From assembly GCA_003211695.1 (NCBI GenBank), contig QCSA01000005.1:1-64000 (forward strand): a DNA stretch of 64,000 nucleotides. The letters run 5' to 3'. Numbering within the stretch: position 1 is the first letter of the stretch; the number at the start of each line of letters is the position of its first letter. This DNA is from Pelagibacteraceae bacterium AG-464-P07. GTDB lineage: Bacteria; Pseudomonadota; Alphaproteobacteria; Pelagibacterales; Pelagibacteraceae. The translations under genes were made by a program, and so were the position numbers. The notes beneath the pieces were generated by a model. That model was not told where the DNA came from, searched no databases, and saw only the letters and a list, made by a program, of their open reading frames with translations. Shown piece by piece: positions 1,670-44,740 of this stretch.

Positions 1670-2542
1670 ATGAATACCCCAATCAATGAAATAACTATTA
1701 TCATTGTACTTTATGAGGAGGAAACGAATCTTGTATTACAATGTTTGGAAAATATAAAAGATTTTAAAATAATAATTGTAGACAATGCTGGAAATAAACT
1801 TCTTAAAAAGGTAGTCGAAAAAAAATTCGAAATATATAAATATGTTCTAAATGAAAAAAATTTAGATTTGCCAAAAGGATTTAATCAAGCGGTTGAACTA
1901 TGTGATACTGAATACATATTAAATTTACAAGCTGATTGTTTAATTTCAAGTAAAGATATATCAATACTTTTGAAATCACACAAAGAATATGACAACTGCT
2001 TCATAGCTTCTCCTACTTTTTATGATAAAGAATTAAAATTAACCTATAACGGAGGAAGCCTTCCAGAAAAAAATGACAAAAAAGATGTTTTAAATTTAGA
2101 AGGTGATGTATGCGTAGAAACTATTTTATTATCAACTATTTTATTTAAAAAAAAAGATATTTTTGAACTTGGTCTATTAGATGAAAATTTTTTGGGATAT
2201 TATGTTGATTTTGAGTTGTGTAGAAGAGTGATAAATAAAGGAGGATCTATCATTCAAGTTTTTGATGCAAAAGCTCAACATTTACATGGCCAACTTAAAA
2301 TAAAAAATTATTTAAAAAGAACTTTTGTGCGAAATTATTATTATACTTTCGACGAACTTTATTATTTTTTTAAAATCAATAAACATTCTGAAATATTAAA
2401 AAAACTCAAAAAAAAATTACCCAATTATATTTTTAAATCAATAATCAACCTTTTTTTATTAAGACCTACTCAAAGCGTATATTATTTCTCCAAAACGGTC
2501 GCGTTCTATAAATTTAATAAATTTTTAAATAAAAAAAATTGA
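1670..2542 (+). CDS. Glycosyltransferase family 2 (rhamnosyltransferase-like)
   Basis: GT-A fold transferase of about 290 aa. The N-terminal ITIIIVLYEEE strand, the IIIVDNAGN nucleotide-binding segment and the LQADCL segment in the metal-binding position match GT2 enzymes of the rhamnosyltransferase/WcaA group. GLLDENFLGYYVDFELCRR is the conserved acceptor-side motif of these enzymes. There is no transmembrane anchor, so it is likely a peripheral membrane enzyme adding a sugar to a lipid-linked or LPS chain. It is last in the plus-strand sugar cluster and faces a convergent GT17 gene 34 bp away. Donor and acceptor cannot be predicted. Confidence 0.87.
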   Translation: MNTPINEITIIIVLYEEETNLVLQCLENIKDFKIIIVDNAGNKLLKKVVEKKFEIYKYVLNEKNLDLPKGFNQAVELCDTEYILNLQADCLISSKDISILLKSHKEYDNCFIASPTFYDKELKLTYNGGSLPEKNDKKDVLNLEGDVCVETILLSTILFKKKDIFELGLLDENFLGYYVDFELCRRVINKGGSIIQVFDAKAQHLHGQLKIKNYLKRTFVRNYYYTFDELYYFFKINKHSEILKKLKKKLPNYIFKSIINLFLLRPTQSVYYFSKTVAFYKFNKFLNKKN

Positions 2543-2576
2543 TATAATTCAAAATCAATTAAAATTGAAAACTTTA

Positions 2577-3383
2577 CTAATCAATCCATTTATTAAATTT
2601 ATGTTGATTGTTTAATATATAATTTGGAAATGTACTGTCTAATTGAACTTTATAATATTTGTTTCCCCTATTAAACAAATCCTTCATTTCATGAATGTTC
2701 TTTTGGATTATATCTATTTTAGTGAATTCATCTTTATTAAAAGCTATATGGGCAAATGTTTTTAATTTCTTTGATATTTTTTCAGGTTCAGATAAATAAT
2801 TAAAATGCCAGCCTCCATTTTCAATTAATTGTATACTTTTTTCTTTATCAATCCTCCAAAATGGATAACGAGTATTTTTTTTTCTTACTTTTTGCCTAAG
2901 AAAGTCGATTGATTTTAAATTTTTTTTAAGACAAATCCTTGACCCTTCCCAAGGACTCTCGTGAGGATTATAAACATTAAGTTTATAGCAAAACATTTTT
3001 TGAAGAAAGATTCCAAATTTTTTATTTAACTTTAGATTTGTCAGTATTTCTGGTCGTGGTATTTCATCTGGGTCTGAAAACATAATATAGTCTTCTGGCT
3101 TTGCATTATTTAAACCATTAAAAATAAATTCTCTTTGAAAAGCCTGTGTTTTCCATGGATTAGAGATATCTGGAAACTGTTTATCAATAACTAAATAAAT
3201 TATTTTATCTATGAATTTTTTATGACTTTCCAAATTGAAGTTAAGTCCTTTATAATTGCCTTTGTGATCAAATTTTGATTCACAAACTATAAATTTTTCT
3301 ATATATTTATTTAAAGTATTAAATCTTAAATTTGCTTGTAAATTTTCATCAAAAAAAGTTATACAATCATAAATTTTAATCAC
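2577..3383 (-). CDS. Glycosyltransferase family 17-like protein
   Basis: Resembles GT17 (beta-1,4-mannosyl-glycoprotein GlcNAc-transferase family) as found in bacterial polysaccharide clusters. Visible family features are the N-terminal KIYDCITFFDENLQ segment, the stretch from KFIVCES to FDHKG, and FSDPDEIPRPE, which carries the acidic metal-binding residues. I place the start at a GTG (3383) rather than the upstream TTG at 3416. The GTG gives the typical MIKIYDC N-terminus and has an AGAGG ribosome-binding site 8 nt upstream. The gene is convergent with the GT2 gene and divergent from the radical SAM gene. The linkage formed is unknown. Confidence 0.8.
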   Translation of the reverse strand: MIKIYDCITFFDENLQANLRFNTLNKYIEKFIVCESKFDHKGNYKGLNFNLESHKKFIDKIIYLVIDKQFPDISNPWKTQAFQREFIFNGLNNAKPEDYIMFSDPDEIPRPEILTNLKLNKKFGIFLQKMFCYKLNVYNPHESPWEGSRICLKKNLKSIDFLRQKVRKKNTRYPFWRIDKEKSIQLIENGGWHFNYLSEPEKISKKLKTFAHIAFNKDEFTKIDIIQKNIHEMKDLFNRGNKYYKVQLDSTFPNYILNNQHKFNKWID

Positions 3384-3691
3384 TGGTTCAACCTCTGCAC
3401 TTTTTCTAATCTCCAAATTATACTAAGATTGCATTAAAATCTTATTTTATTCAATGTTATAAATGGTAAAACTATAGCAAAATCATAAAATGAAAAAAAT
3501 CAAAATATTACATTCAGAAGAAGCTAAGTTAATTTGACAAATAATTTTTTTATTTGTTTCAAATTTTACTTGGAAAATGCGCAGGAAATACTTTGAAAAT
3601 TTATAAAAAATTTGAGTAATAGCTTGTAAAATTAATTTAATACTGTGATAAATAATGAAAAATAAATAAATATTTAAACGAAATTTTTAAA
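3384..3691. other. Divergent intergenic region (about 300 bp) with a terminator-like hairpin
   Basis: Separates the GT17 gene (minus) from the radical SAM gene (plus), so it must carry both promoters. No recognisable protein gene is present. A 15-codon ORF (3491-3538, reading MKKIKILHSEEAKLI) runs straight into the hairpin at 3533-3563. It could be a leader peptide, a gene relic or chance. The remainder is low-complexity A/T sequence with no clear promoter consensus that I would defend. Confidence 0.5.
3533..3563 (+). terminator. Terminator-like stem-loop in the leader of the radical SAM gene
   Basis: TTTG plus ACAAATAA (3533-3544), a five-T loop and TTATTTGT plus CAAA (3550-3557 and 3560-3563) form a 12-bp stem with a 2-nt bulge. 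It is followed by TTTTACTT on the plus strand. The stem is almost pure A/T, so its strength is doubtful. It lies about 130 bp upstream of the radical SAM start and could attenuate that gene. Confidence 0.3.
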
Positions 3692-5209
3692 GTGAATCAA
3701 ATCAAAATATTATTATTATATCCACCTGAACAACAGTGGCCAGGTTGCATAGTTAAACCTAACGGATCTTTAGCTTATCCATATTTAGGTGGGTCTTTGA
3801 GAGATATTGGTATTGAAACTTATATATATGATGCTTGCGTAGGTAATAATAATGATAACCTAGAAAATTTTTTTAAAAATTCTACACAGCTTCCTAGTGG
3901 CATGTTAAGGACTGGTGTTAGTAACGATAGGATATTAGAAGTAGTAAGTTACTATGATGCTGTAGGTATAACATCAATATTTTCCCAGCAAGAAACTCAA
4001 GTATTGGATTGTGCAAAATTAATAAAAAAAAATTATCCGAATAAATTACTTTTTTCTGGCGGTGTTAATGCTAAATCAAGACCTTCTATTTTCTTTGCTG
4101 CTGGATTTGATATTATTTTTACTTCTGAATCAGAAATTACCATACAACAAATAGCAAAAATTTTACAAAAAGGTAGTAGAGATTTCAGTTCTGTGGGAAA
4201 AATATATTTTAAAAACAAATATGGAAAAATAATCGATAATTCTCATTTTGGTGATATTGTTTGGGATTTAGATAAACTGCCAATTCCTGCTTGGAATTTA
4301 TTACCCAATGAAAGATATTGGAAAATTGGTAGACCACACGGAGGTCAAATTGCTTCTGATAGTACTTTAAGATACGCTTCCATAATGACTTCAAGAGGTT
4401 GTCCTTTTGCGTGTTCGTATTGCCATATAGCTAATGAAACTGTAAATTCAAAATCAGGTGCTATAGGTAGGTTCCGAATAAAGTCTGATGATAGAGTTAG
4501 AAACGAATTACAAATCTTAAAAGATGAGATAGGTGTAAAACAAGTTTTTATTGAAGATGATTCAATATTTGGCAAGAAGAAAAGAGCCATTCGACTTTTA
4601 AAAAGTATAATTGGTTTTGGATTGGATTTAATGGATGTCAATGGAATTAACATGATACATTTAGTCAAAAAAAGTAATAAACCAAATTGGATGGTTCCGG
4701 ATGAAGAGGTCATTGAATTGCTAGCTGAAGTTGGGTTTAAATATATAGTTTTACCATTTGAATCTGCAAATCTAAGAATAATAAAAAAATGGTGTTCTAA
4801 TAAACTAGCTTTAGATCGATTTAGCCCAAGCGATTTAATTAAAACCATCAAAAAATACAAAATAAATGTAGGAACAAACTACATGATAGGTTTCCCGGAT
4901 GAAACAAGGAAGGAAATAGAAACAACATTAAACTTTGCTCATAAAATGAAACAAAATGGTTTAGATCATTCAAATTTCTTTTTAGTAATGCCAGTGCCGG
5001 GTACGCCAATATTTGATTATTGTATAAAAAAAGGTCACCTACCAAAAAATTATAACCCAGATAAATTTCAATGGACAAAAGCAAACCTAATTAATACCGC
5101 TGTTTCACCAGCTGAATTAGAAAGTATTAGAGATAAAGCTTGGGATGACTGTAATAATCAACAGTTTAAAAAAGAAAGAAAAAGTTGGGTAGCTACTAGA
5201 CCAAGTTGA
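3692..5209 (+). CDS. B12-binding-domain radical SAM protein
   Basis: 505 aa with an N-terminal cobalamin-binding-like Rossmann region (about 1-160, including ILLLYPP and FSGGVNAKSRP). A radical SAM core follows, whose 4Fe-4S cluster motif is C237-x3-C241-x2-C244 (CPFACSYC). The later segments LPFESAN, NYMIGFPDET and PVPGTPIFDY are typical of the Elp3/MiaB-like radical SAM barrel. Such enzymes perform methylations, ring rearrangements or C-C chemistry on unactivated carbons; the substrate here is unknown. It starts with GTG and has no strong Shine-Dalgarno. The position among polysaccharide genes suggests a surface-sugar or lipid modification, which is inference. Confidence 0.88.
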   Translation: MNQIKILLLYPPEQQWPGCIVKPNGSLAYPYLGGSLRDIGIETYIYDACVGNNNDNLENFFKNSTQLPSGMLRTGVSNDRILEVVSYYDAVGITSIFSQQETQVLDCAKLIKKNYPNKLLFSGGVNAKSRPSIFFAAGFDIIFTSESEITIQQIAKILQKGSRDFSSVGKIYFKNKYGKIIDNSHFGDIVWDLDKLPIPAWNLLPNERYWKIGRPHGGQIASDSTLRYASIMTSRGCPFACSYCHIANETVNSKSGAIGRFRIKSDDRVRNELQILKDEIGVKQVFIEDDSIFGKKKRAIRLLKSIIGFGLDLMDVNGINMIHLVKKSNKPNWMVPDEEVIELLAEVGFKYIVLPFESANLRIIKKWCSNKLALDRFSPSDLIKTIKKYKINVGTNYMIGFPDETRKEIETTLNFAHKMKQNGLDHSNFFLVMPVPGTPIFDYCIKKGHLPKNYNPDKFQWTKANLINTAVSPAELESIRDKAWDDCNNQQFKKERKSWVATRPS

Positions 5210-5232
5210 CATTAACAATGTTCTTTTTACTT

Positions 5233-6261
5233 TTAATTTAACCATTTATCCAAAATTCTCATATTTTCGAGAGTTTCATTGATGGTCATGCCAGGAAAAT
5301 TAGGTTCTTTTTTATTTTCTAATATGCACTTGCTTAAGATATCTATCTCGTAAGTGTAAATATTATTATGACTTCTAATCTTAATTATTTCCTTATTTTC
5401 ACCATTAATTTGTATTGACGAAATATCTGATGGAGTCCAGGTATTCTCTAAAACTAATTCACCTTTGGTTCCAATGATCTTTGTTTTTTTTCCCAAATTT
5501 TGTGTCAGTGAAGCACCAACAGTAGATTTAAAATTATTTTCAAAATTTAGTTCTGCAAATGAATTCATATCGACTCCGGTTGGTCCAATTTCTTTTTTTT
5601 TATTTAAGACCTTTGTTTTATTAAAATCAAAATTAGAAATTAATGAAGCAATAAGAATACTAAAAGAGACAGGATAACATCCTACGTCAAGTATTGCTCC
5701 TCCACCCAATTCTTTATTATATAATCTGTAATTTCTATTTGGTTTCTTTTTTAATTTAATACCAAATATTTTTTTTCTACCTAATGCATCAAAACCAAAA
5801 AATGATTCCATCGAAACTAAATTTCCTATCACTTTATTTTTTAATAAATCTACAACTTTTTCTATTTGGGGATGGTATCTGTACATAAATGCCTCTGAAA
5901 ATAAAATATTTTTGCCTTTTAAATTATTTTTTATATTTTCCATCTGTGAAAAATCTACAGTGGCAGGTTTTTCCACCAAGATATTTTTTCCCTTTTCAAT
6001 AGTTTTGATTACCCATTCGTGATGAAGAGAATGAGGTAAAGCTATATAAATTATATCTAAATCTTTACATTCCAATAAGCTATTATAATTCGTAAAACAA
6101 CAATCATCACCAATTTGAAACTTATTTTTGAATGTCTGAAGTTTATTTTCACTTCTACTTGATATAGCAAATAATTTAGCATTCTTTATATATTGAAATC
6201 CTTCAGCAAATTTTAAGGCAATATTTCCTAAACCTATAATTCCCCACTTCACTTGTTTCAT
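5233..6261 (-). CDS. Gfo/Idh/MocA-family NAD(P)-dependent oxidoreductase
   Basis: 342-aa two-domain dehydrogenase. The N-terminal Rossmann fold shows GIIGLGNIA near residue 8. The conserved EKPA motif (VEKPATVDF, about residue 97) marks the catalytic lysine typical of Gfo/Idh/MocA enzymes. The C-terminal alpha/beta half includes GGGAILDVGCYPV, the family's GG-x-D-x-G-x-H-like segment, with Cys-Tyr where many members have a His. Likely role: oxidation or reduction of a sugar or sugar nucleotide, cytoplasmic. It lies 4 bp after lepA on the same strand, so it may be transcribed from the translation operon. The radical SAM gene converges on it. Confidence 0.9.
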   Translation of the reverse strand: MKQVKWGIIGLGNIALKFAEGFQYIKNAKLFAISSRSENKLQTFKNKFQIGDDCCFTNYNSLLECKDLDIIYIALPHSLHHEWVIKTIEKGKNILVEKPATVDFSQMENIKNNLKGKNILFSEAFMYRYHPQIEKVVDLLKNKVIGNLVSMESFFGFDALGRKKIFGIKLKKKPNRNYRLYNKELGGGAILDVGCYPVSFSILIASLISNFDFNKTKVLNKKKEIGPTGVDMNSFAELNFENNFKSTVGASLTQNLGKKTKIIGTKGELVLENTWTPSDISSIQINGENKEIIKIRSHNNIYTYEIDILSKCILENKKEPNFPGMTINETLENMRILDKWLN

Positions 6262-6265
6262 AAAA

Positions 6266-8071
6266 TTATACTTTGTTTATTTTTAATACCCCAATAAATG
6301 CTTCCTTTGGAATTTCAACTTGACCAAATTGTTTTGCTCTTGTTTTTCCTTTTTTTTGTTTATCCAAAAGTTTTCTTTTTCTATCTCTGGCTCCACCACC
6401 ATGTATTTTGGTTAAAACATCTTTTTTAAATCCTTTTATGGTTTCTCTAGCAATGATCTTTCCACCTATGACTGCTTGAATAGGAATTAGAAAATTATGT
6501 CTTGGAATTAATGCTTTAAGTTTTTCACATACCAGCCTTCCTTGTGATTGAGCAAAATCCTTGTTGATAATCATTGAGAGAGCATCAACGGGTTCAGTGT
6601 TAACTAATATTCCCATCTTAACTAAATTGCCTTCTTTATAATCTGTAATTTCATAATCAAAACTTGCATATCCGCTAGAAATTGATTTGATACGATCATA
6701 AAAATCAAAAACCACTTCATTTAATGGCAGTTCATAACTTAACACAGCACGGTTTCCTGAATAGGTTAAATTGCTCTGAACTCCTCTTTTATCCTGGCAA
6801 ATTTTTATCACTGATCCTAAGTATTGGTCTGGAGTAATTATTGTAGCTTTGATCCAAGGTTCCTCTATTGATAGAATTTGAGTTGGATCCGGCATATCTG
6901 TTGGGTTTTGTAGTTCCTGAATCGTACCATTTTTTTTGTTAATTTTATATATTACTCCAGGTGTTGTGGTTATAAGATTAATATCAAATTCTCTTTCTAA
7001 CCTTTGAGTCACAATTTCTAAATGAAGCAATCCTAAAAAACCACATCTAAAACCTAATCCCAATGCACTAGAGGATTCTGTTTCATAAGAAAAACTTGAG
7101 TCGTTAAGTTTTAATTTTGCTAAACTATCTTTTAACTTTTGATATTCTGAATTATCAACTGGAAATAAACCACAAAATACAACTGGTTTACTTGGTTTAA
7201 ATCCTGGTAAAGCTTTTTCGACAGGATTTGATGAATCACATATTGTGTCACCGACTTTGGTGTCAGACAAATTCTTTATTCCAGTAATTATAAAACCAAT
7301 CTCTCCAGATGAAATTTCATCCATATCTTTAGGCTTTGGTGTAAATACACCAACTTTTTCAATTACATGTTTGCTGTTATTAGACATCATTTTAATTTCC
7401 ATACCTTTTTTTAAATTTCCATCGATCACTCTTACTAAAATAACAACTCCTAAATAACTGTCGTACCAACTATCTACCAATAAACATATTAACGGTTTCT
7501 TTGTATTGCCTTTAGGTGAAGGTAAAATTTTAACTATAGACTCTAATATTTCATCAATTCCTTCACCTGTTTTTCCTGAACAATTAATGGAGTGACTGGT
7601 ATCTATCCCAATTACATCTTCTATTTGTTTTTTAACCTTCTCTGTATCTGAGGATGGTAAATCAATTTTATTGAGGACAGGTATAATTTCATGATTGTTA
7701 TCGAGAGCTTGGTACACATTGGCCAAGGTTTGAGCTTCAACTCCTTGCGAACTATCAACAATTAAAATAGAACCTTCGCAAGCTGATAAAGATCGACTTA
7801 CTTCGTAGCTAAAATCTACGTGTCCAGGAGTGTCGATAATATTAAAAATATAATTTTTGCCATCTTTCGCTTTATAATTTAAACGAACTGTTTGAGCTTT
7901 TATAGTAATTCCTCTTTCTCTTTCAATATCCATAGTATCAAGAACTTGATCTTTCATTTCTCTATCACTTAATCCTCCACATTTTTGGATTAGTCTATCT
8001 GCTAAGGTAGATTTGCCATGATCGATATGCGCAATTATAGAAAAATTGCGTATAGCTTCATTATTAGACAT
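6266..8071 (-). CDS. lepA: Elongation factor 4 (LepA) GTPase
   Basis: 601-aa translational GTPase that back-translocates or remodels stalled ribosomes. The G1 motif AHIDHGKST (14-22), the G3 motif [12 protein letters not shown], the G4 motif NKIDLPS and the LepA-specific C-terminal domain ([20 protein letters not shown]) are all present. The length matches the family (about 600). Its ATG overlaps the pheT stop codon by one base (TAATG), indicating translational coupling at the end of the thrS-infC-rpmI-rplT-pheST operon. Confidence 0.98.
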
Positions 8072-11949: not shown

Positions 11950-11950
11950 T

Positions 11951-12157
11951 TTAACCTCTTAAATTATAAGGCATGTATGATTTCACAATTTTTTCATCTT
12001 GCTTGGACATAATGGTTGTACCTCTTTGCTTTCTAATTTGTGAATTCGTTCTTTTGATCATGCCATGTCTTTTACCTGCTTGAGGCATTATCACTTTTCC
12101 TTTACCAGTTATTTTAAATCTTTTCTTTGCTGAACTTTTAGTTTTTAGTTTGGGCAT
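11951..12157 (-). CDS. rpmI: 50S ribosomal protein L35
   Basis: 68-aa L35, recognised by [20 protein letters not shown] and the very basic composition. It sits between infC and rplT, the conserved order across bacteria, one base from rplT. No oddities seen. Confidence 0.99.
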
Positions 12158-12216
12158 AAAATAATTGGCAGTTTATACAAACAATATAATTAATTTACAA
12201 TGACTAATATTTGACA

Positions 12217-12762
12217 CTAAAGTGGTTGAATTACCATAGTCATCTGTCTACCCTCAAATTTTGGACTAAGCTCTAATTTGCCAACTTCTTTTACATCCTC
12301 TTCAACTCTTTTCAATAATTCCTTTCCGAGATAATGATGTTGCATTTCTCTTCCTCTAAACTTAACTGTAAATTTTACTTTATCTCCTTTTGAAAGAAAC
12401 TTTTGTGCATTTTTTATTTTAAAATTATAATCATGAATTTCTATAACTGGTCTAAGTTTAATTTCTTTTAATTCTGATATCTTTTGTTTTTTCTTTGCTT
12501 TGTTTGCTTTTTTTTGTAATTCATATTTATATTTACCCATATCGATTATTTTACAGACTGGAGGATTTGCTTTGGGAGCAATTTCAATTAAATCTAATCC
12601 TTCTTGTTTAGCTAAATACAATGCTTCTTTAGTAGATAAAATTCCTAGATTTTGTCCCTCGCTACTAATAACTTGTACTTTGAGCGAATTAATATTGTTA
12701 TTTGCTTTAGGACCTCTTGGTCTCGTCCTCCTTTGAAAATAGTTTTGTTTAAATACTGCCAC
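12217..12762 (-). CDS. infC: Translation initiation factor IF-3
   Basis: 181-aa IF-3 that prevents premature subunit joining and checks start codons. The N-terminal domain contains NLGILSTKEALYLAKQ and DLIEIAPKANPPVCKI; the C-terminal domain contains KFTVKFRGREM and ends RQMTMVIQPL. It appears to start with GTG placed immediately after the thrS stop (TAAGTG). Non-AUG starts are common in infC and allow autoregulation by IF-3. An AGGAGG inside codons 11-12 encodes Arg-Arg and is not followed by a usable start codon. Confidence 0.97.
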   Translation of the reverse strand: MAVFKQNYFQRRTRPRGPKANNNINSLKVQVISSEGQNLGILSTKEALYLAKQEGLDLIEIAPKANPPVCKIIDMGKYKYELQKKANKAKKKQKISELKEIKLRPVIEIHDYNFKIKNAQKFLSKGDKVKFTVKFRGREMQHHYLGKELLKRVEEDVKEVGKLELSPKFEGRQMTMVIQPL

Positions 12763-34356: not shown

Positions 34357-35592
34357 TCAGATATTTTCTGCCCAGTTTTTTAACTTTGAAACACCTTCAA
34401 GAACATTTGGAGCAAATTTAGAAAGAATATCTTGATTTATTTCTTTACAACCTGAAGTATTATTTAAAAATTTTTCTCCATCAAAATCGGTAAAACTCAA
34501 TCTTGCTAGCATTTTGTTCTCAGAAAATCCAAACTCACTGCCGGGCAACAAAGCAACTCCGGTTTCATTTATTATACTTTTACACATTTCCGAAGAGGTT
34601 TGAAATTTGTTATTAATAAATTCTGGCATTAAATAAAATCCACCTTCAGGCTTGTTAATCAAAATTTTATTTGATTTTAGATTTTCGTATACATACATGC
34701 CTATTTCTTTAAGAATTTTTTTTGTCCTTTTAACATAATTGCTATGATCTTTGGTGAAGGCTGAAATAGATGCATACTGAATTGGAGAGTTTACAGAAGT
34801 AAAAGACTCGCTAGCTAGTATTTTTAAAGAATTTTTTATATTCTTTAAACTATCAGGAATGGCAAAAAAACCTAAGCGCCAACCACCAGCTCCACACCAC
34901 TTGCTTAATCCAGTACTAATTATCGTTCCTTCAGGATTGTAGTTCGAAATTGAATCACATTCATCACTGAATGAAAGTTCAGAGTAAATTTCATCTGATA
35001 ATATTAAAATATTATATTTTTTAGCAACATTCCCTAAATCATTTAAATTTTTACATATTGTGCCGGATGGATTATTTGGTGAATTTAAGAACAATAAATG
35101 ATTTTTATTTTTATTTAATTGAACTATATTTTCAATTTGTTGAGCAGTTGGAAACCAATTATTTGAACTTGTAGTTTCAATCCAGTGGACTTTATTTCTT
35201 CCCAAAATAGCCTGGGGACCATACGAAACCCAACTTGGAACTGGTAATAATATATCACCCTCAAATAATATGTGTAATAGAAACATTAATTCTTTGGTTC
35301 CAGGACCAATGATTATGTTGTCAGCTCTAAATTTTTTTTTACTTTTTTTATTTAAATATACTGCAACTGCTTCACGAAGCTCTATCAAACCCTGCATTGG
35401 TAAATATTTGTTCTGATGTACATTATTTATTAATTCATTCCTTACAATTTCTGGTACTGGAAAAGGAGATTGTCCGAAACCAAATTTGTAAACTTTTTTC
35501 CCTTGGTCCTGAAGCCGTTTGGTCTCTTCATTAATTTGTAAAGTAGCTGATGGCTTAAGTTTTTTGACTATGTCTTTAATCATTTTATTCAT
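34357..35592 (-). CDS. Class I/II PLP-dependent aminotransferase
   Basis: 411-aa aspartate-aminotransferase-fold enzyme. NSPNNPSGTI is the PLP-contact loop, LSDEIYSEL carries the Asp for the pyridine nitrogen, and GLSKWCGAGGWRLGF contains the Schiff-base lysine. The motif with GAGGWRLG is typical of the aspartate/aromatic/alanine subgroup. It overlaps the 3' end of the acetoacetyl-CoA synthetase by 8 bp and is followed by the TAXI gene 60 bp away, so it may process the transported substrate. An internal ATG (M4, 35583) is an alternative start. Confidence 0.9.
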   Translation of the reverse strand: MNKMIKDIVKKLKPSATLQINEETKRLQDQGKKVYKFGFGQSPFPVPEIVRNELINNVHQNKYLPMQGLIELREAVAVYLNKKSKKKFRADNIIIGPGTKELMFLLHILFEGDILLPVPSWVSYGPQAILGRNKVHWIETTSSNNWFPTAQQIENIVQLNKNKNHLLFLNSPNNPSGTICKNLNDLGNVAKKYNILILSDEIYSELSFSDECDSISNYNPEGTIISTGLSKWCGAGGWRLGFFAIPDSLKNIKNSLKILASESFTSVNSPIQYASISAFTKDHSNYVKRTKKILKEIGMYVYENLKSNKILINKPEGGFYLMPEFINNKFQTSSEMCKSIINETGVALLPGSEFGFSENKMLARLSFTDFDGEKFLNNTSGCKEINQDILSKFAPNVLEGVSKLKNWAENI

Positions 35593-36775
35593 ATAATTCT
35601 TTAATATTTTTGAATTGATTTAGAGAATCGGGATTTACAAGAGCCTCGATATTTTTAACCTGATCACCTTCTATTGTTTGTTTAACGGCAAGTTCAACTA
35701 TTTTACCATTTTTTGTCTTTGGAATATCTTTTATTGGAAAGATTTTGTAAGGCACGTGCCTTGGAGAAGCATTGTTTTTAATTTGTTTTTTTATCTTCAT
35801 AATTAATTCTTCAGTAAGATTAGATTGACTATCTAATACTACAAATAAAATAATTCTAATATCGTTATCCCAAGATTGTCCAACAACTAGAGCTTCCCTA
35901 ATCTCATCAAATTTTTCTACTTCAGAATATATTTCCGCTGTTCCCAGTCTCACACCCCCGGGATTGAGTGTCGTATCGGACCTTCCATAAATTACAAACC
36001 CTCCGCTATCCTTTACTTCAGCATAATCACCATGGTGCCAAATATTATTGTATTTTGCAAAATATGAATTTTTATATTCTTTATCTCCTTCATCATTCCA
36101 AAACTTTAAAGGCATCGAAGGAAAAGGTTTTTTACAAACAAGTTCTCCTTTTTTATTTTTTATCGCTTTACCTTTTTCATCAAAAATGTCTACATCCATA
36201 CCAAGCCCTTTATTTTGTATTTCTCCTGAAATTACTGGTTGATAAAGATTTCCAAGTACAAAGCAAGAAACTATGTCAGTGCCTCCAGATATAGAAGCTA
36301 GATGAACATCTTTTTTTATATTTTGATAAACATAATTAAATCCATCTTTAGATAGAGGAGATCCGGTAGAACAGATAGTTTTTAAATTGGATAAATTAAA
36401 TTTATTTATCGTTGTGATTTTACTTTTTCTTAACGCATCTATATATTTTGCACTAATACCAAATAAGGTTATATTTTCGGCATTTGCAATTTCAATTAAA
36501 AGATCATCCTTTTTATACATTGGGAAACCGTCAAATAGTAAAATTGATGCTTTAAGAGCTAGTGAACTAACCAACCAATTCCACATCATCCAACCGCATG
36601 TCGTAAAATAAAAAATTTTATCATTTGGATTTATATCACAATGCAAATACAGTTCTTTAATATGTTGCAAAAGAACCCCTCCTGTTCTATGGCAAATACA
36701 TTTGGGTTTGCCAGTAGTTCCGCTAGAATAAAGAATTGCTAGTGGGTGATTAAATTTAAATAATTCAAAATTCAT
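35585..36775 (-). CDS. aacS: Acetoacetyl-CoA synthetase, C-terminal part (out of frame with N-terminal part)
   Basis: 396-residue open segment of an ANL-superfamily acyl-CoA synthetase. It carries the AMP-binding P-loop YSSGTTGKPK (16-25), the ASISGGTDIVSCF adenine-site segment, HHGDYAE, YGRSDTTLNPGGVRLG and the C-terminal K-motif PKTKNGKIVE. It would activate acetoacetate with ATP and CoA. On its own it lacks the N-terminal 250 residues. The frame stays open upstream of this ATG to the A9 run at 36839-36847, reading on as LNFKEINVLEWKNILN, which is where the N-terminal part stops. The two parts are one gene broken by one base. Confidence 0.88.
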   Translation of the reverse strand: MNFELFKFNHPLAILYSSGTTGKPKCICHRTGGVLLQHIKELYLHCDINPNDKIFYFTTCGWMMWNWLVSSLALKASILLFDGFPMYKKDDLLIEIANAENITLFGISAKYIDALRKSKITTINKFNLSNLKTICSTGSPLSKDGFNYVYQNIKKDVHLASISGGTDIVSCFVLGNLYQPVISGEIQNKGLGMDVDIFDEKGKAIKNKKGELVCKKPFPSMPLKFWNDEGDKEYKNSYFAKYNNIWHHGDYAEVKDSGGFVIYGRSDTTLNPGGVRLGTAEIYSEVEKFDEIREALVVGQSWDNDIRIILFVVLDSQSNLTEELIMKIKKQIKNNASPRHVPYKIFPIKDIPKTKNGKIVELAVKQTIEGDQVKNIEALVNPDSLNQFKNIKELYE

Positions 36776-36834: not shown

Positions 36835-37545
36835 TTAATTTTTTTTTGAAATATCTGAGCCTGGATAAGGAACAATAATTAAATGTTTAATTGATGGAAT
36901 GCTTTTTAATATTTCTTTTGACCTACTTAGTACTTCTATTTTTTTTCCATTATAATAATACTTATCAGCAATAAATAAAACTTTTGGATTTATTTGAGAA
37001 AATCGTTCCACTACACCTTTGATGCCAAAATCAGGCGAACACGAAGACCAAATAGCTCCTATTGCTGCTGATGCTAAAAAAGCCTCGATCGTTTCTATAC
37101 AATTTGGTAAGTAAGCAGCAACTCTGTCATTTTCTTTTATTCCAATTTCTTTTAAAAATTTTGATATTTTAATGATATCTGTATTAAGCTCTCTCCAAGT
37201 TTTATTTTCTTTATATCCATTTTCACTAATAAAGGTTACTGATAATGAGTTATCATTTTTTGACAACAAATTTTCTGTAAAATTTAATTTTGAGTCTGGT
37301 AAAAATTCATTTTTATAAAATATTTTAGAAAAATGTGTAAGCCTATTTCCTAATTGACCTTTGACATTTGAAAATTTCCAAATTGATTTCCAAAATTCTC
37401 CCGAATTACCAACTGACCATTTCCACAATTTTTCGTAATTATTTTTATAGTTCAATCCGTATTTTTTTTTTAAAAAATCTTCAAATTTAAATAAATTTGA
37501 TTTTTTTAATTTTTCATCAGAACATTTCCAAAAAAATTTGGTCAT
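36835..37545 (-). CDS. aacS: Acetoacetyl-CoA synthetase, N-terminal part (ends at frameshift)
   Basis: 236-aa N-terminal region: KLWKWSVGNSGEFWKSIWKF, then HFSKIFYKNEFLPDSKLNFTENLL and the ACS-type GAIWSSCSPDFGIKGVVERF segment, all diagnostic for acetoacetyl-CoA synthetase. Translation stops at TAA (36835-36837) straight after nine consecutive A (plus-strand T at 36839-36847). One more A, or a -1 slip on the run, joins it to the C-terminal part. That gives about 650 aa, the normal family length. Either a pseudogene, a sequencing or assembly error, or a gene rescued by slippage. Confidence 0.86.
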   Translation of the reverse strand: MTKFFWKCSDEKLKKSNLFKFEDFLKKKYGLNYKNNYEKLWKWSVGNSGEFWKSIWKFSNVKGQLGNRLTHFSKIFYKNEFLPDSKLNFTENLLSKNDNSLSVTFISENGYKENKTWRELNTDIIKISKFLKEIGIKENDRVAAYLPNCIETIEAFLASAAIGAIWSSCSPDFGIKGVVERFSQINPKVLFIADKYYYNGKKIEVLSRSKEILKSIPSIKHLIIVPYPGSDISKKN

Positions 37546-42066: not shown

Positions 42067-43785
42067 TTAATTTTTATAAAAATTTTCTAAAACATTTTTA
42101 TACTTTGCAATAACTTTATTTCTTTTTACTTTCATAGTTGGTGTTAACAAACCATTTTCAATTGAAAAATTTTCATTAATTAAATTAAATTTTTTTATTT
42201 TTTCAATTAAAGTTAAATTTTTGTTAATTTCATTTACTATTTCATTAATTTTTTCTTTGTTTTCTTTAAATTCTTTGCTAGGAACGATTAGCGCAACTAA
42301 ATAATTTTTTCCATCTCCATACACCATGCACTGATCTATTGCTGGAGAATTTGATAATTGATTTTCAATTTTAGCTGGTGAAATATTATCTCCTCCTGCG
42401 TTAACAATTATATCTTTTTTTCTATCTGTGATTTTTAAATAACCATCTTGAGAGTCTAACTCTCCAATATCTCCAGTATATAACCATCCATCTCTAATCA
42501 CTTTTTTGGTTTCTTCTTTTTTGTTCCAATAACCTAGCATTACATTTTCTCCCTTAACCAATATCTCTCCATCTTCAGCAATTTTTACTTGGTTGCCTTT
42601 AAATGGAGGCCCTACACTTTCAACCTTAATTTTATGAATAGGATTGCAACTGACTACCGGGGAAGTTTCTGTTAAACCATATCCTTGAAGAGTGGGAAGT
42701 CCTATAGCATTTAAAAATTCACCTATTTCTTTATCTAATGCACCTCCTCCTGAAACAAAAGCTCTTAAATTACCACCAAATTGCTTCTTCACTTTTTTTC
42801 TTACTAGAGAACTACAAATACAATTTATTAATTTTTCGTTTAAACTCATTTTTTGGTTGAGTAACTTTTTTTTACCCAAAGAGATTGTAGATCTAATTAA
42901 CTTGGCTTTTAAGCCAGTTTGTTTTTTCATATTCATGTTTATTTTACTATAAAGATTTTGATAAAACCGAGGGACGGCAGTCATAAGTGAAGGTTTAGCT
43001 TCTGAAATATTGTCCAAAAGTTTTTCTATTTTTTCTGCATAAAAAACTTTTGCCCCAACGGAAATTTGTACAAATTGAACAGTATGTTCATAAGAATGGG
43101 ATAAGGGAAGCCAAGTCAAAAAAACAGGCCTTTTATCAATTAATGGTTTTAAAATTTCACATGCTCCTTCACAATTATTTAATATTCCTCCATGGCTTAA
43201 AATAACTCCTTTTGGATTTCCTCCTGTTCCCGAAGTATATATTATACAAGCGGGTGACGTTCTTTTTAAATTCAAATTTTTGATTTTATCATTTTCTACA
43301 AGTTCAGTTTTAATTATAGAATTAAAATCTATATATTTATTTTCATAGTCAACTCCATCTATTTTTTCAAAAGTGATTACTTTTTTTATAAAATTTTTTT
43401 CTTCAATAATTTTTTGTAATTTTTTATGCATCTCGTTATTAGAAACAACAATAATTGAGGGTTCACAGTCTTCGATCAGATACTTATAGTCATTTTCAGT
43501 ATATGTAGTGTAAGCAGGAACTGTAATTGCATTTGCTAGCATAATTGCAATATCTGAAATAAGCCACTCTGGCCTATTTTCCGAAACTAAAAGACACCTG
43601 TCATCTTCTCTTACATATTCCTTTAAAATTTTAGCAAATTTATAAATATTTGATGATGTTTCTGACCATGTAAATATTTTTTTATTTTTTGGATTAAGCC
43701 ACTCTAAAAAAATACTTTCAGGAATTTGTTTTTCGGCCTGATAAAAAAATAAATCTGTTAGGCTGTTAAATTCATTTAAATTCAT
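42067..43785 (-). CDS. Long-chain acyl-CoA synthetase (AMP-binding, FAA1 type)
   Basis: 572-aa ANL-superfamily ligase. P-loop YTSGTGGNPKG (183-193), LQGYGLTETSPVVSCNP adenine loop, GWLYTGDIGELD and ITDRKKDIIVNAGGDNISPAKIE hinge are all present, giving the order expected for long-chain acyl-CoA synthetases of the COG1022 type. It activates fatty acids to acyl-CoA for lipid synthesis or beta-oxidation. It stands alone between the AT-rich gap and the tRNA-Leu fragment, whose end lies only 8 bp upstream of its ATG. Any island insertion therefore changed its promoter region. Confidence 0.92.
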   Translation of the reverse strand: MNLNEFNSLTDLFFYQAEKQIPESIFLEWLNPKNKKIFTWSETSSNIYKFAKILKEYVREDDRCLLVSENRPEWLISDIAIMLANAITVPAYTTYTENDYKYLIEDCEPSIIVVSNNEMHKKLQKIIEEKNFIKKVITFEKIDGVDYENKYIDFNSIIKTELVENDKIKNLNLKRTSPACIIYTSGTGGNPKGVILSHGGILNNCEGACEILKPLIDKRPVFLTWLPLSHSYEHTVQFVQISVGAKVFYAEKIEKLLDNISEAKPSLMTAVPRFYQNLYSKINMNMKKQTGLKAKLIRSTISLGKKKLLNQKMSLNEKLINCICSSLVRKKVKKQFGGNLRAFVSGGGALDKEIGEFLNAIGLPTLQGYGLTETSPVVSCNPIHKIKVESVGPPFKGNQVKIAEDGEILVKGENVMLGYWNKKEETKKVIRDGWLYTGDIGELDSQDGYLKITDRKKDIIVNAGGDNISPAKIENQLSNSPAIDQCMVYGDGKNYLVALIVPSKEFKENKEKINEIVNEINKNLTLIEKIKKFNLINENFSIENGLLTPTMKVKRNKVIAKYKNVLENFYKN

Positions 43786-43792
43786 AGAATTT

Positions 43793-43848
43793 TGGTGGGC
43801 GAAGAGAGACTCGAACTCTCACAGTATTGCTACCATTGGATTTTGAGT
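43793..43848 (-). repeat. 3'-half duplicate of tRNA-Leu (putative att site)
   Basis: 56 bp identical, except for one base, to 44654-44709. It runs from the anticodon loop through the variable arm, T arm and CCA of tRNA-Leu. The 5' half is replaced by unrelated sequence: the anticodon stem cannot pair and no D arm exists, so it is not a working tRNA. This is the footprint left at the far end of an element integrated into a tRNA gene. Confidence 0.85.
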
Positions 43849-43902
43849 TTTCTTCGTCTGTCAATATTCCCACCCCTCCTTATTAATTTACATACAAAAT
43901 TG

Positions 43903-43924
43903 CGTGTATGAGACGTGTATGAGT
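43903..43924. repeat. Arm-type-like repeat, copy 1
   Basis: Two tandem 11-mers, cgtgtatgaga then cgtgtatgagt, one helical turn apart. The 22-bp unit recurs at 44563-44584 with one mismatch. It lies about 55 bp inside the tRNA-Leu duplicate, where integrase arm sites would be expected. Confidence 0.7.
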
Positions 43925-43947
43925 CATTTCCATTTTTTTTACTAATT

Positions 43948-44517
43948 CTATTTTAACCATTCATTATATTCTTTTGTTTTTATAGTTACATTCAGATTGT
44001 CAGTATATGACATTTCTTTCGACCAATCATAACATCTAACACTTGCATTTCCTGATTTTAAAAAGAAAGCAACTCCTTCGGTGGTGCTTTTACCAGATTC
44101 ATCAAGACTATGTTTTCTTTTTTTTTGTATTTCCTTCTCTCCATTTTTGAAGACCTCGGATAATTCTTCTGCAATTTCATCCATTTTTTTGTAACAACTA
44201 TCAATATTATTGTCATAAAATATTCCACTACGCACTGCATGTATTATATATTTTGTGTCATTAGTTTTCATTGCAATTTGAATTGAATCATAAACTTTAA
44301 AGAATGGAAGTTTATAAAACTCTGCATGAATAAACGTTTTATCTTTATCATCAGGAAAAGAAAATAATTCTTTTTTTATTTCTTCTTCAGAAAAAAAATC
44401 CAGTGCACTATCTCCTATACTCATCCCTTCACTTTGAAAGTCAGATATATCATCACCAAAAGAGGGTGCCGAGAAGCTGAAGAGAATTAAAAACAGGTAA
44501 GTAGACAGTTTTTTCAT
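43948..44517 (-). CDS. Secreted hypothetical protein carried by the mini-island
   Basis: 189 aa with a clear Sec signal peptide (MKKLSTYLFLILFSFSAPSFG, cleavage likely near residue 21) and a mature acidic/basic mixed domain. It contains two cysteines (in DSCYKK and VRCYDW) that could form a disulfide in the periplasm. No domain is recognised. A charged Lys/Glu helix lies around KNGEKEIQKKRKH. It is the only gene between the tRNA-Leu repeats and is transcribed in the same direction as the tRNA. It probably came with the element as cargo; function unknown. Confidence 0.8.
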   Translation of the reverse strand: MKKLSTYLFLILFSFSAPSFGDDISDFQSEGMSIGDSALDFFSEEEIKKELFSFPDDKDKTFIHAEFYKLPFFKVYDSIQIAMKTNDTKYIIHAVRSGIFYDNNIDSCYKKMDEIAEELSEVFKNGEKEIQKKRKHSLDESGKSTTEGVAFFLKSGNASVRCYDWSKEMSYTDNLNVTIKTKEYNEWLK

Positions 44518-44562
44518 TTTATTTAAAATTCATACACAAAACGTAAACCGAGTTTATACCAA

Positions 44563-44584
44563 CGTGTATGAGACGTGTAGGAGT
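44563..44584. repeat. Arm-type-like repeat, copy 2
   Basis: Matches 43903-43924 at 21 of 22 positions, in the same orientation, about 70 bp from the CCA end of the intact tRNA-Leu. The two 11-mers are cgtgtatgaga and cgtgtaggagt. It is the partner site at the other end of the putative island. Confidence 0.7.
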
Positions 44585-44653
44585 TGTTTTTTGGTTGTAT
44601 TTTTCTACAACTTATAATTTAAGAATTATTATTATTGCGACTCATAGTTAATT

Positions 44654-44740
44654 TGGTGGGCGAAGAGAGACTCGAACTCTCACAGCATTGCTACCATTGG
44701 ATTTTGAGTCCAACGCGTCTACCAGTTCCGCCATTCGCCC
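44654..44740 (-). tRNA. tRNA-Leu (anticodon CAA)
   Basis: 87-nt type II tRNA with encoded CCA. Acceptor GGGCGAA pairs with TTCGCCC. D arm contains GAACTGGTAGACGC. Anticodon stem TTGGA/TCCAA encloses loop CTCAAAA, so the anticodon is CAA and it reads UUG. A long variable arm and GTTCGAGTC T loop follow. It appears to be the integration target of the adjacent mini-island and remains intact. Confidence 0.97.

Follow-up and report, generated by a model that had tools for sequence, protein, structure and literature searches.

SAR11 bacteria are among the most abundant bacterial groups, and their gene content varies even though few recognisable mobile elements are found in their genomes. How do genes enter and leave such genomes? 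A locus beside a leucine tRNA in one of them raises this question on a small scale: it has both ends of an integrated element and a single gene, and no integrase. The window that we analyzed is a stretch of 64,000 nucleotides from Pelagibacteraceae bacterium AG-464-P07, a member of the SAR11 family Pelagibacteraceae whose genome is a 1.14-Mb draft in 46 contigs (83% complete). Contigs related to the window's are titled Pelagibacteraceae.

The window contains an intact tRNA-Leu(CAA) gene whose 3' half is present a second time nearby (Table 1). A sequence-only reading of this DNA had described the copy as 56 bp with one mismatch. We found that the duplicated core comprises the 3' half of the tRNA plus 2 nt, or 58 nt in all, with 1 mismatch, and that the two copies are 861 bp apart (start to start). 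The same reading had seen two 22-bp double repeats that face into the interior. These repeats are present near both ends, but they do not face each other: both are on the same strand, in direct orientation. Within each double repeat the units recur in 11-bp phase, and by their layout these phased pairs are putative arm-type sites for an integrase. If the ends of the element were joined, the resulting attP would read arm, core, arm, with direct pairs. Direct arm-type pairs that flank the core have been described for phages L5 and Giles (PMC3203893). We found no further copy of the 21-mer arm repeat elsewhere in the genome, even with up to 3 mismatches.

Table 1. The element at tRNA-Leu(CAA): features and their positions in the window
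Feature	Position	Strand	Basis
Intact tRNA-Leu(CAA), whose 3' half provides one core copy of the two (att at the tRNA end of the element)	44654-44740	-	ARAGORN; Rfam RF00005, 60.4 bits
att core copy of 58 nt, in the intact tRNA and at its 3' end	44652-44709	-	Repeat search
Second, displaced att core copy that covers the tRNA-Leu 3' half from the anticodon loop to CCA, with 1 mismatch	43791-43848	-	Repeat search; relatives with an empty site have the same junction to the ligase gene
Putative arm-type double repeat, tRNA end: CGTGTATGAGA CGTGTAGGAGT, 11-bp phase	44563-44584	+	Repeat search, phasing statistics
Putative arm-type double repeat, far end: CGTGTATGAGA CGTGTATGAGT, 11-bp phase	43903-43924	+	Repeat search, phasing statistics
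Cargo gene: probably secreted protein of 189 amino acids, SAR11 multi-copy family	43948-44517	-	ORF, profile searches, model
Interior of the integrated element	43849-44651		Core-copy period of 861 bp

Is this arrangement the result of an insertion? In 15 relatives, tRNA-Leu(CAA) lies directly before the same ligase gene, with a gap of roughly 10 bp. This is the empty site that the sequence-only reading had proposed to look for. In the window, the gap between the tRNA and the ligase gene (42067-43785) is about 869 bp, and the junction of the far core copy with the ligase gene is identical to the junction of the intact tRNA with that gene in the relatives. The Leu(CAA) element is a precise insertion with a target duplication. 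Two other relatives are not simply empty at this site: one has unrelated DNA there (G009) and the other is rearranged (G003). The sequence-only reading would have been contradicted by a fixed locus in distant relatives; the relatives instead have the empty site. Because of these empty sites and the recurrence statistics given below, a chance origin of the arrangement is excluded. In short, the element has the marks of integration into a tRNA gene (a partial tRNA duplication at both ends along with an intact tRNA, an empty site, and arm-type sites at both ends) and lacks an integrase of its own, with a single cargo ORF. Elsewhere in the window, a CoA-ligase-type gene seems to be split, perhaps by a frameshift or an assembly error: two consecutive ORFs on the minus strand (36835-37545 and 35585-36775) resemble its halves.

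The cargo gene is the only ORF between the arm repeats, and the protein begins with a stretch that resembles a signal peptide; as the sequence-only reading had it, this protein is probably secreted. Members of its family are present in 43 of 397 Pelagibacteraceae genomes (one genome per species), often as tandem arrays. At a meaningful E-value, the family matches nothing in Pfam, NCBIfam, or PADLOC, and tblastn against the phage collection also gave no match. An AlphaFold2 model is a confident alpha/beta structure (mean pLDDT 91.3). Its similarity to structures in the PDB (DcrB, Mog1, and PsbP-like proteins) is weak, with E above 0.001 and TM about 0.3, and we do not use it as a claim about function. 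The fold is also weakly similar to a few small proteins encoded by phages, one of which is a lipoprotein. We considered a viral contig (L049) as a carrier of the family and rejected it, as only a common signal peptide is shared: at 4992-6149 it encodes a protein of 385 amino acids that has nearly the signal peptide of the cargo family and is otherwise unrelated. This contig also has phage baseplate-like genes. Genes of the cargo family are found as well in a single-cell genome that is labelled SUP05 (RIS_SAG_20; L039 and L045), which reflects either SAR11 contamination or a real transfer.

The same genome has relatives of the cargo gene at three other tRNA genes, tRNA-Gly(GCC), tRNA-Leu(TAG), and tRNA-Arg(TCT), and the repeat sequence differs at each. 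Two of these sites, tRNA-Gly(GCC) (L002) and tRNA-Leu(TAG) (L003), have full elements with the same layout, so the genome holds several independent cassettes with different arms. The claim of the sequence-only reading that a full att structure is kept although no integrase is present is supported, and it extends to these sister elements. Fragments of tRNA-Arg(TCT) are found with arrays of cargo genes on two further contigs. Other SAR11 genomes have the family at Ser(GGA), at Thr(TGT), and at Gly(GCC), the last of these with a copy of the 5' half of the tRNA; further members adjoin Leu(TAA) and Met(CAT) fragments. Tandem att copies at Thr and Gly sites (L032, L319, and L393) indicate that several units have accreted at one tRNA, and some islands are larger (4.6-12 kb) with mixed cargo. 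In a tree of the cargo proteins, in which many branches are weak, the grouping does not follow the tRNA site: the copy at Gly(GCC) falls with copies from other genomes near which we found no tRNA, and the copy at Leu(TAG) falls with a Leu(GAG) copy. Cassettes that share a kind of cargo appear to carry the attP of different integrases, and the gene family is therefore spread over many tRNA genes.

A census of the tRNAs of the genome (RF00005 loci) identified further islands without a recognised integrase at Met(CAT), Cys(GCA), and Phe(GAA), as well as a second element behind the Gly cassette. These islands carry other cargo, so the layout of the cassettes does not depend on the secreted-protein family. 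The Met island (L387, G000:C3:88000-95760, at 2593-7332) is 4.6 kb, extends from a copy of the 5' half of tRNA-Met to a complete tRNA-Met, and has about five genes and similar arm pairs (GTTGGGAC..GTTGGGA) at both ends. At the Cys site (L386, G000:C21, at 3337-6168), two complete tRNA-Cys genes lie 2.7 kb apart; between them are 11-bp phased repeats of the TGACCAAG type, both direct and inverted, and a 13-nt piece of the tRNA-Cys core. The Phe site (L391, G000:C3:1-12000, at 2235-3934) has two complete tRNA-Phe genes, a 5' fragment, and an 11-phased repeat, and the ORF between the tRNA genes encodes what we presume from its sequence may be a dioxygenase. The second element behind the Gly(GCC) cassette (L393, G000:C7:7000-14000, at 1686-4224) has a different arm pair, TGATCACAATTTGATCACAC, and ends in a 48-nt copy of the tRNA-Gly 3' end.

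The sequence of the arm repeats varies among elements and their geometry is common to them. We counted a repeat wherever at least 7 of 8 bases matched at a given offset. In 17 of 25 element ends there is a repeat at an offset of exactly 11, while every other offset from 8 to 25 gives 0-2 ends; first-order Markov shuffles of the 25 ends (n = 200) averaged 0.45 ends and reached 4 at most. The exceptions include the Gly cassette of L027, whose end segments lack the 11-phased pair. The 25 end segments were picked with their repeats already known, and therefore an unselected test across the genome weighs more. In that test, an 11-phased repeat lies within 200 bp of 11 out of the 29 tRNAs, as compared to 0-3 for other offsets.

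Which integrase might act on these sites? For the Leu(TAG) sister, phages of known sequence offer a candidate. This cassette has TGTTGC arms at +0/+12/+19 (TGTTGC-6-TGTTGC-13-TGTTGC) and the core AGTCTTAGGAACT. In the pelagiphages HTVC011P, HTVC041P, and HTVC025P, the integrase gene is followed by a tRNA-Leu(TAG), three arms that start at +0/+12/+19, and the core AGTCTTAGGAACT, except that the first arm of HTVC025P is CGTTGC and the core of HTVC011P reads GGTCTTAGGAACT. The integrases of HTVC041P and HTVC025P are about 38-45% identical to that of HTVC011P. Cassette and phages thus share the site (tRNA-Leu(TAG)/tig), the core, and the TGTTGC arms at +12/+19; on the opposite side, the cassette has GCAAC arms and then GGTGCATA, as in HTVC011P. 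In 2.14 Mb of compared sequence, we found TGTTGC-6-TGTTGC-13-TGTTGC only in the Leu(TAG) cassette and beside HTVC011P-type integrases; this set is enriched in HTVC011P-type phages, so the phage matches were expected and the cassette match was not. The other TGTTGC spacings that we tested had zero matches in the same 2.14 Mb. Judged by these shared motifs and their spacing, the Leu(TAG) cassette carries an attP of the HTVC011P pelagiphage type. Unlike the phages, it has no phage gene and no integrase, just one secreted-protein gene, and in place of the phage's tRNA it has a degenerate tRNA-like piece.

Integration of HTVC011P and HTVC025P at tRNA-Leu(TAG)/tig has been reported (PMC6811365). The same site is occupied in four more SAR11 genomes, all from one genus, by prophages with HTVC011P-type integrases (L276, L277, L278, and L279); the arms of these prophages are GATACAA- or GATACGA-like, not TGTTGC. 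We surveyed the site in 29 relatives, one of which has a contig end too close to judge. It is empty in 27 of the 28 relatives with the tRNA in reach, with the tRNA 4-54 bp from tig, and the remaining one carries a prophage. The element in the window differs from the HTVC011P type in its arms, which are CTCATACACG pairs.

We then turn to candidates for the Leu(CAA) element itself. The assembled genome encodes one tyrosine recombinase (on a contig other than the window's, C10, with a weak SAM-like N-terminal domain), which is the single match to PF00589; this profile search detected no integrase remnant anywhere in the assembly. There is no match to the HTVC011P-type integrase in the assembled genome either, nor any other integrase that matches the cassettes. 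With the genome 83% complete, the missing remainder could hold an integrase. The exact Leu(CAA) arm pair is absent from IMG/VR and, besides the window's own genome, from the 397 Pelagibacteraceae genomes, and the exact 3' 28-mer has no match in IMG/VR. The sequence-only reading would also have been contradicted if no phage or integrase used its 11-mer. For that specific 11-mer, this half of the refutation stands: we found no phage or integrase with it in IMG/VR or in the 397 Pelagibacteraceae genomes.

Other leads to a helper were mostly set aside. A relaxed arm pattern, TGTATGAGNNNTGTATGAG, is found in 7 viral contigs, none of which has the tRNA core nearby; the two for which ORFs are listed have no recognised integrase. 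BLAST of the tRNAs against phages mostly matched the tRNA genes of phages and was uninformative. The attP regions of the HTVC019P, HTVC021P, HTVC120P, and HTVC200P types, as compared by eye, are at other tRNAs or, at Arg(TCT), have visibly different flanking repeats. The arm pattern of the Thr cassettes occurs in 66 viral contigs, and most of these matches are an unrelated phased-repeat structure without a tRNA. Four of the contigs have a tRNA core nearby (L119, L132, L145, and L150), and in L150 a recognised integrase gene adjoins. L145 is a GC-rich viral contig in which TGTGGTGTC double repeats flank a tRNA 3' piece (11950-12330), and the arm motif is the one in the SAR11 Thr cassettes.

We propose that the element in the window is probably a non-autonomous attP cassette: one secreted-protein gene inserted in tRNA-Leu(CAA), with the tRNA restored, which would be integrated and excised by an integrase that acts in trans. 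The integrase would come from a co-resident or infecting phage or island, mainly from phages, and would recombine the attP of the cassette (a tRNA-derived core and paired 11-bp arm sites) with the tRNA gene. Excision by the same means would yield a cassette circle, which might pass between cells by transduction, in vesicles, or by natural transformation. Both movement in trans and continued mobility are what we infer from the sites. The sequence-only reading had suggested a satellite-like element mobilised by a prophage, or the remnant of one. Mobilisation has indirect support, as the Leu(TAG) sister has an HTVC011P-type attP at a site that prophages use, but the element has no genes for packaging, replication, or regulation, so a strict satellite is not supported.

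The main rival is that these elements are decayed islands. They would have arrived with their own integrase, as prophages or genomic islands; streamlining would then have left the ends and one useful gene, and they would now be immobile. In favour of decay, SAR11 genomes are streamlined, and some of the islands are larger, with mixed cargo. The degenerate tRNA-like piece in the Leu(TAG) sister, which sits where the phage has its tRNA, also fits a deletion from a prophage and counts against a cassette mobilised in trans. Yet decay would have had to reach the same minimal outcome, with both arms, both cores, and one gene of the same family, many times and with different arms, and to do so with the single PF00589 match as the only trace of a recombinase in the assembly. 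Furthermore, the arm pairs at the two ends are still nearly identical, though they are useless to the host. Finally, aside from the common signal peptide, our searches of phage collections found no relative of the cargo, and therefore it is not a leftover phage gene. We consider decay unlikely as the explanation for the element in the window.

It is much less probable that the cassette is a CIME-like passenger, able to move in cis alone: it would join an autonomous island in tandem at its tRNA and leave together with that island. The tandem att copies at the Thr and Gly sites would fit this, but the Leu(CAA) and Leu(TAG) elements are solitary, each with a single pair of core copies, and the assembled genome has no autonomous partner. 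Ordinary chromosomal duplication, in which homologous recombination copied part of a tRNA and the short repeats arose by chance, could draw on the duplicated tRNA pieces that do occur in arrays, but given the 11-bp phasing at both ends of many elements, the empty sites, and the match to phage attP architecture, it is hardly credible, and the recurring arm pairs refute it in practice.

If cassettes mobilised in trans are the right explanation, then a broader picture may follow, which we offer tentatively. SAR11 might host a whole class of att cassettes that lack an integrase and that parallel MITEs and CALINs, with a tyrosine integrase as the borrowed enzyme. Phage integrases would be a public resource for these cassettes, shared at about ten tRNA genes. 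Small cargo, above all one diversifying family of secreted proteins, would be continually loaded, swapped, and stacked. Such cassettes, with complete phage-type att sites, would explain how a SAR11 genome gains and loses genes without mobile-element machinery and, if the picture is true, would be the mechanism that underlies the additive flexible islands of streamlined plankton. The hypothesis is directly testable because the likely integrase of the Leu(TAG) cassette (HTVC011P type) comes from a cultured phage and because the core and arms have been located in the sequence.

How does the Leu(CAA) element compare to known systems? Phage satellites such as PICI and P4-like elements have their own integrase as well as genes for regulation, replication, or packaging. 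Dependence on phages is plausible for the cassettes too, but the Leu(CAA) element has one ORF and no integrase, regulator, replication, or packaging gene of its own. CIMEs are cis-mobilisable elements flanked by attL and attR. Like them, the Leu(CAA) element is flanked by att sites and has no integrase; unlike them, it is far smaller and solitary, with no phage-like or integrase gene adjoining within the window. Additive flexible genomic islands at tRNAs are closer in some respects. One account (PMC10872708) gives as an example the tRNA-Lys repeats in Ca. Methylopumilus (330 bp-42 kb) and also describes tycheposons, which have a tyrosine recombinase, measure 4-200 kb, and occupy one of a few tRNAs. 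These systems and the cassettes share cargo that is added beside a tRNA, repeated tRNA 3' pieces, and streamlined planktonic hosts, while the Leu(CAA) element differs from tycheposons in being 861 bp and having no recombinase.

In the searchable literature, which leaves subscription journals outside its scope, we did not find such cassettes described, with a single gene, no integrase, and complete attP sites of phage type for several integrases. Elements that borrow a recombinase are known: these hitchers include MITEs, which use a transposase, and CALINs, which use an integron integrase (PMC11389934). MITEs and CALINs resemble the proposed cassettes in having minimal recombination sites without a recombinase and in being mobilised in trans. 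By comparison with integron cassettes and CALINs, the ends of the Leu(CAA) element seem to be accounted for by tRNA cores and arm pairs. The SAR11 cassettes differ from both MITEs and CALINs in that their sites are phage-type attP in tRNA genes, apparently for several tyrosine integrases, and in that each unit has a protein gene, often from one family.
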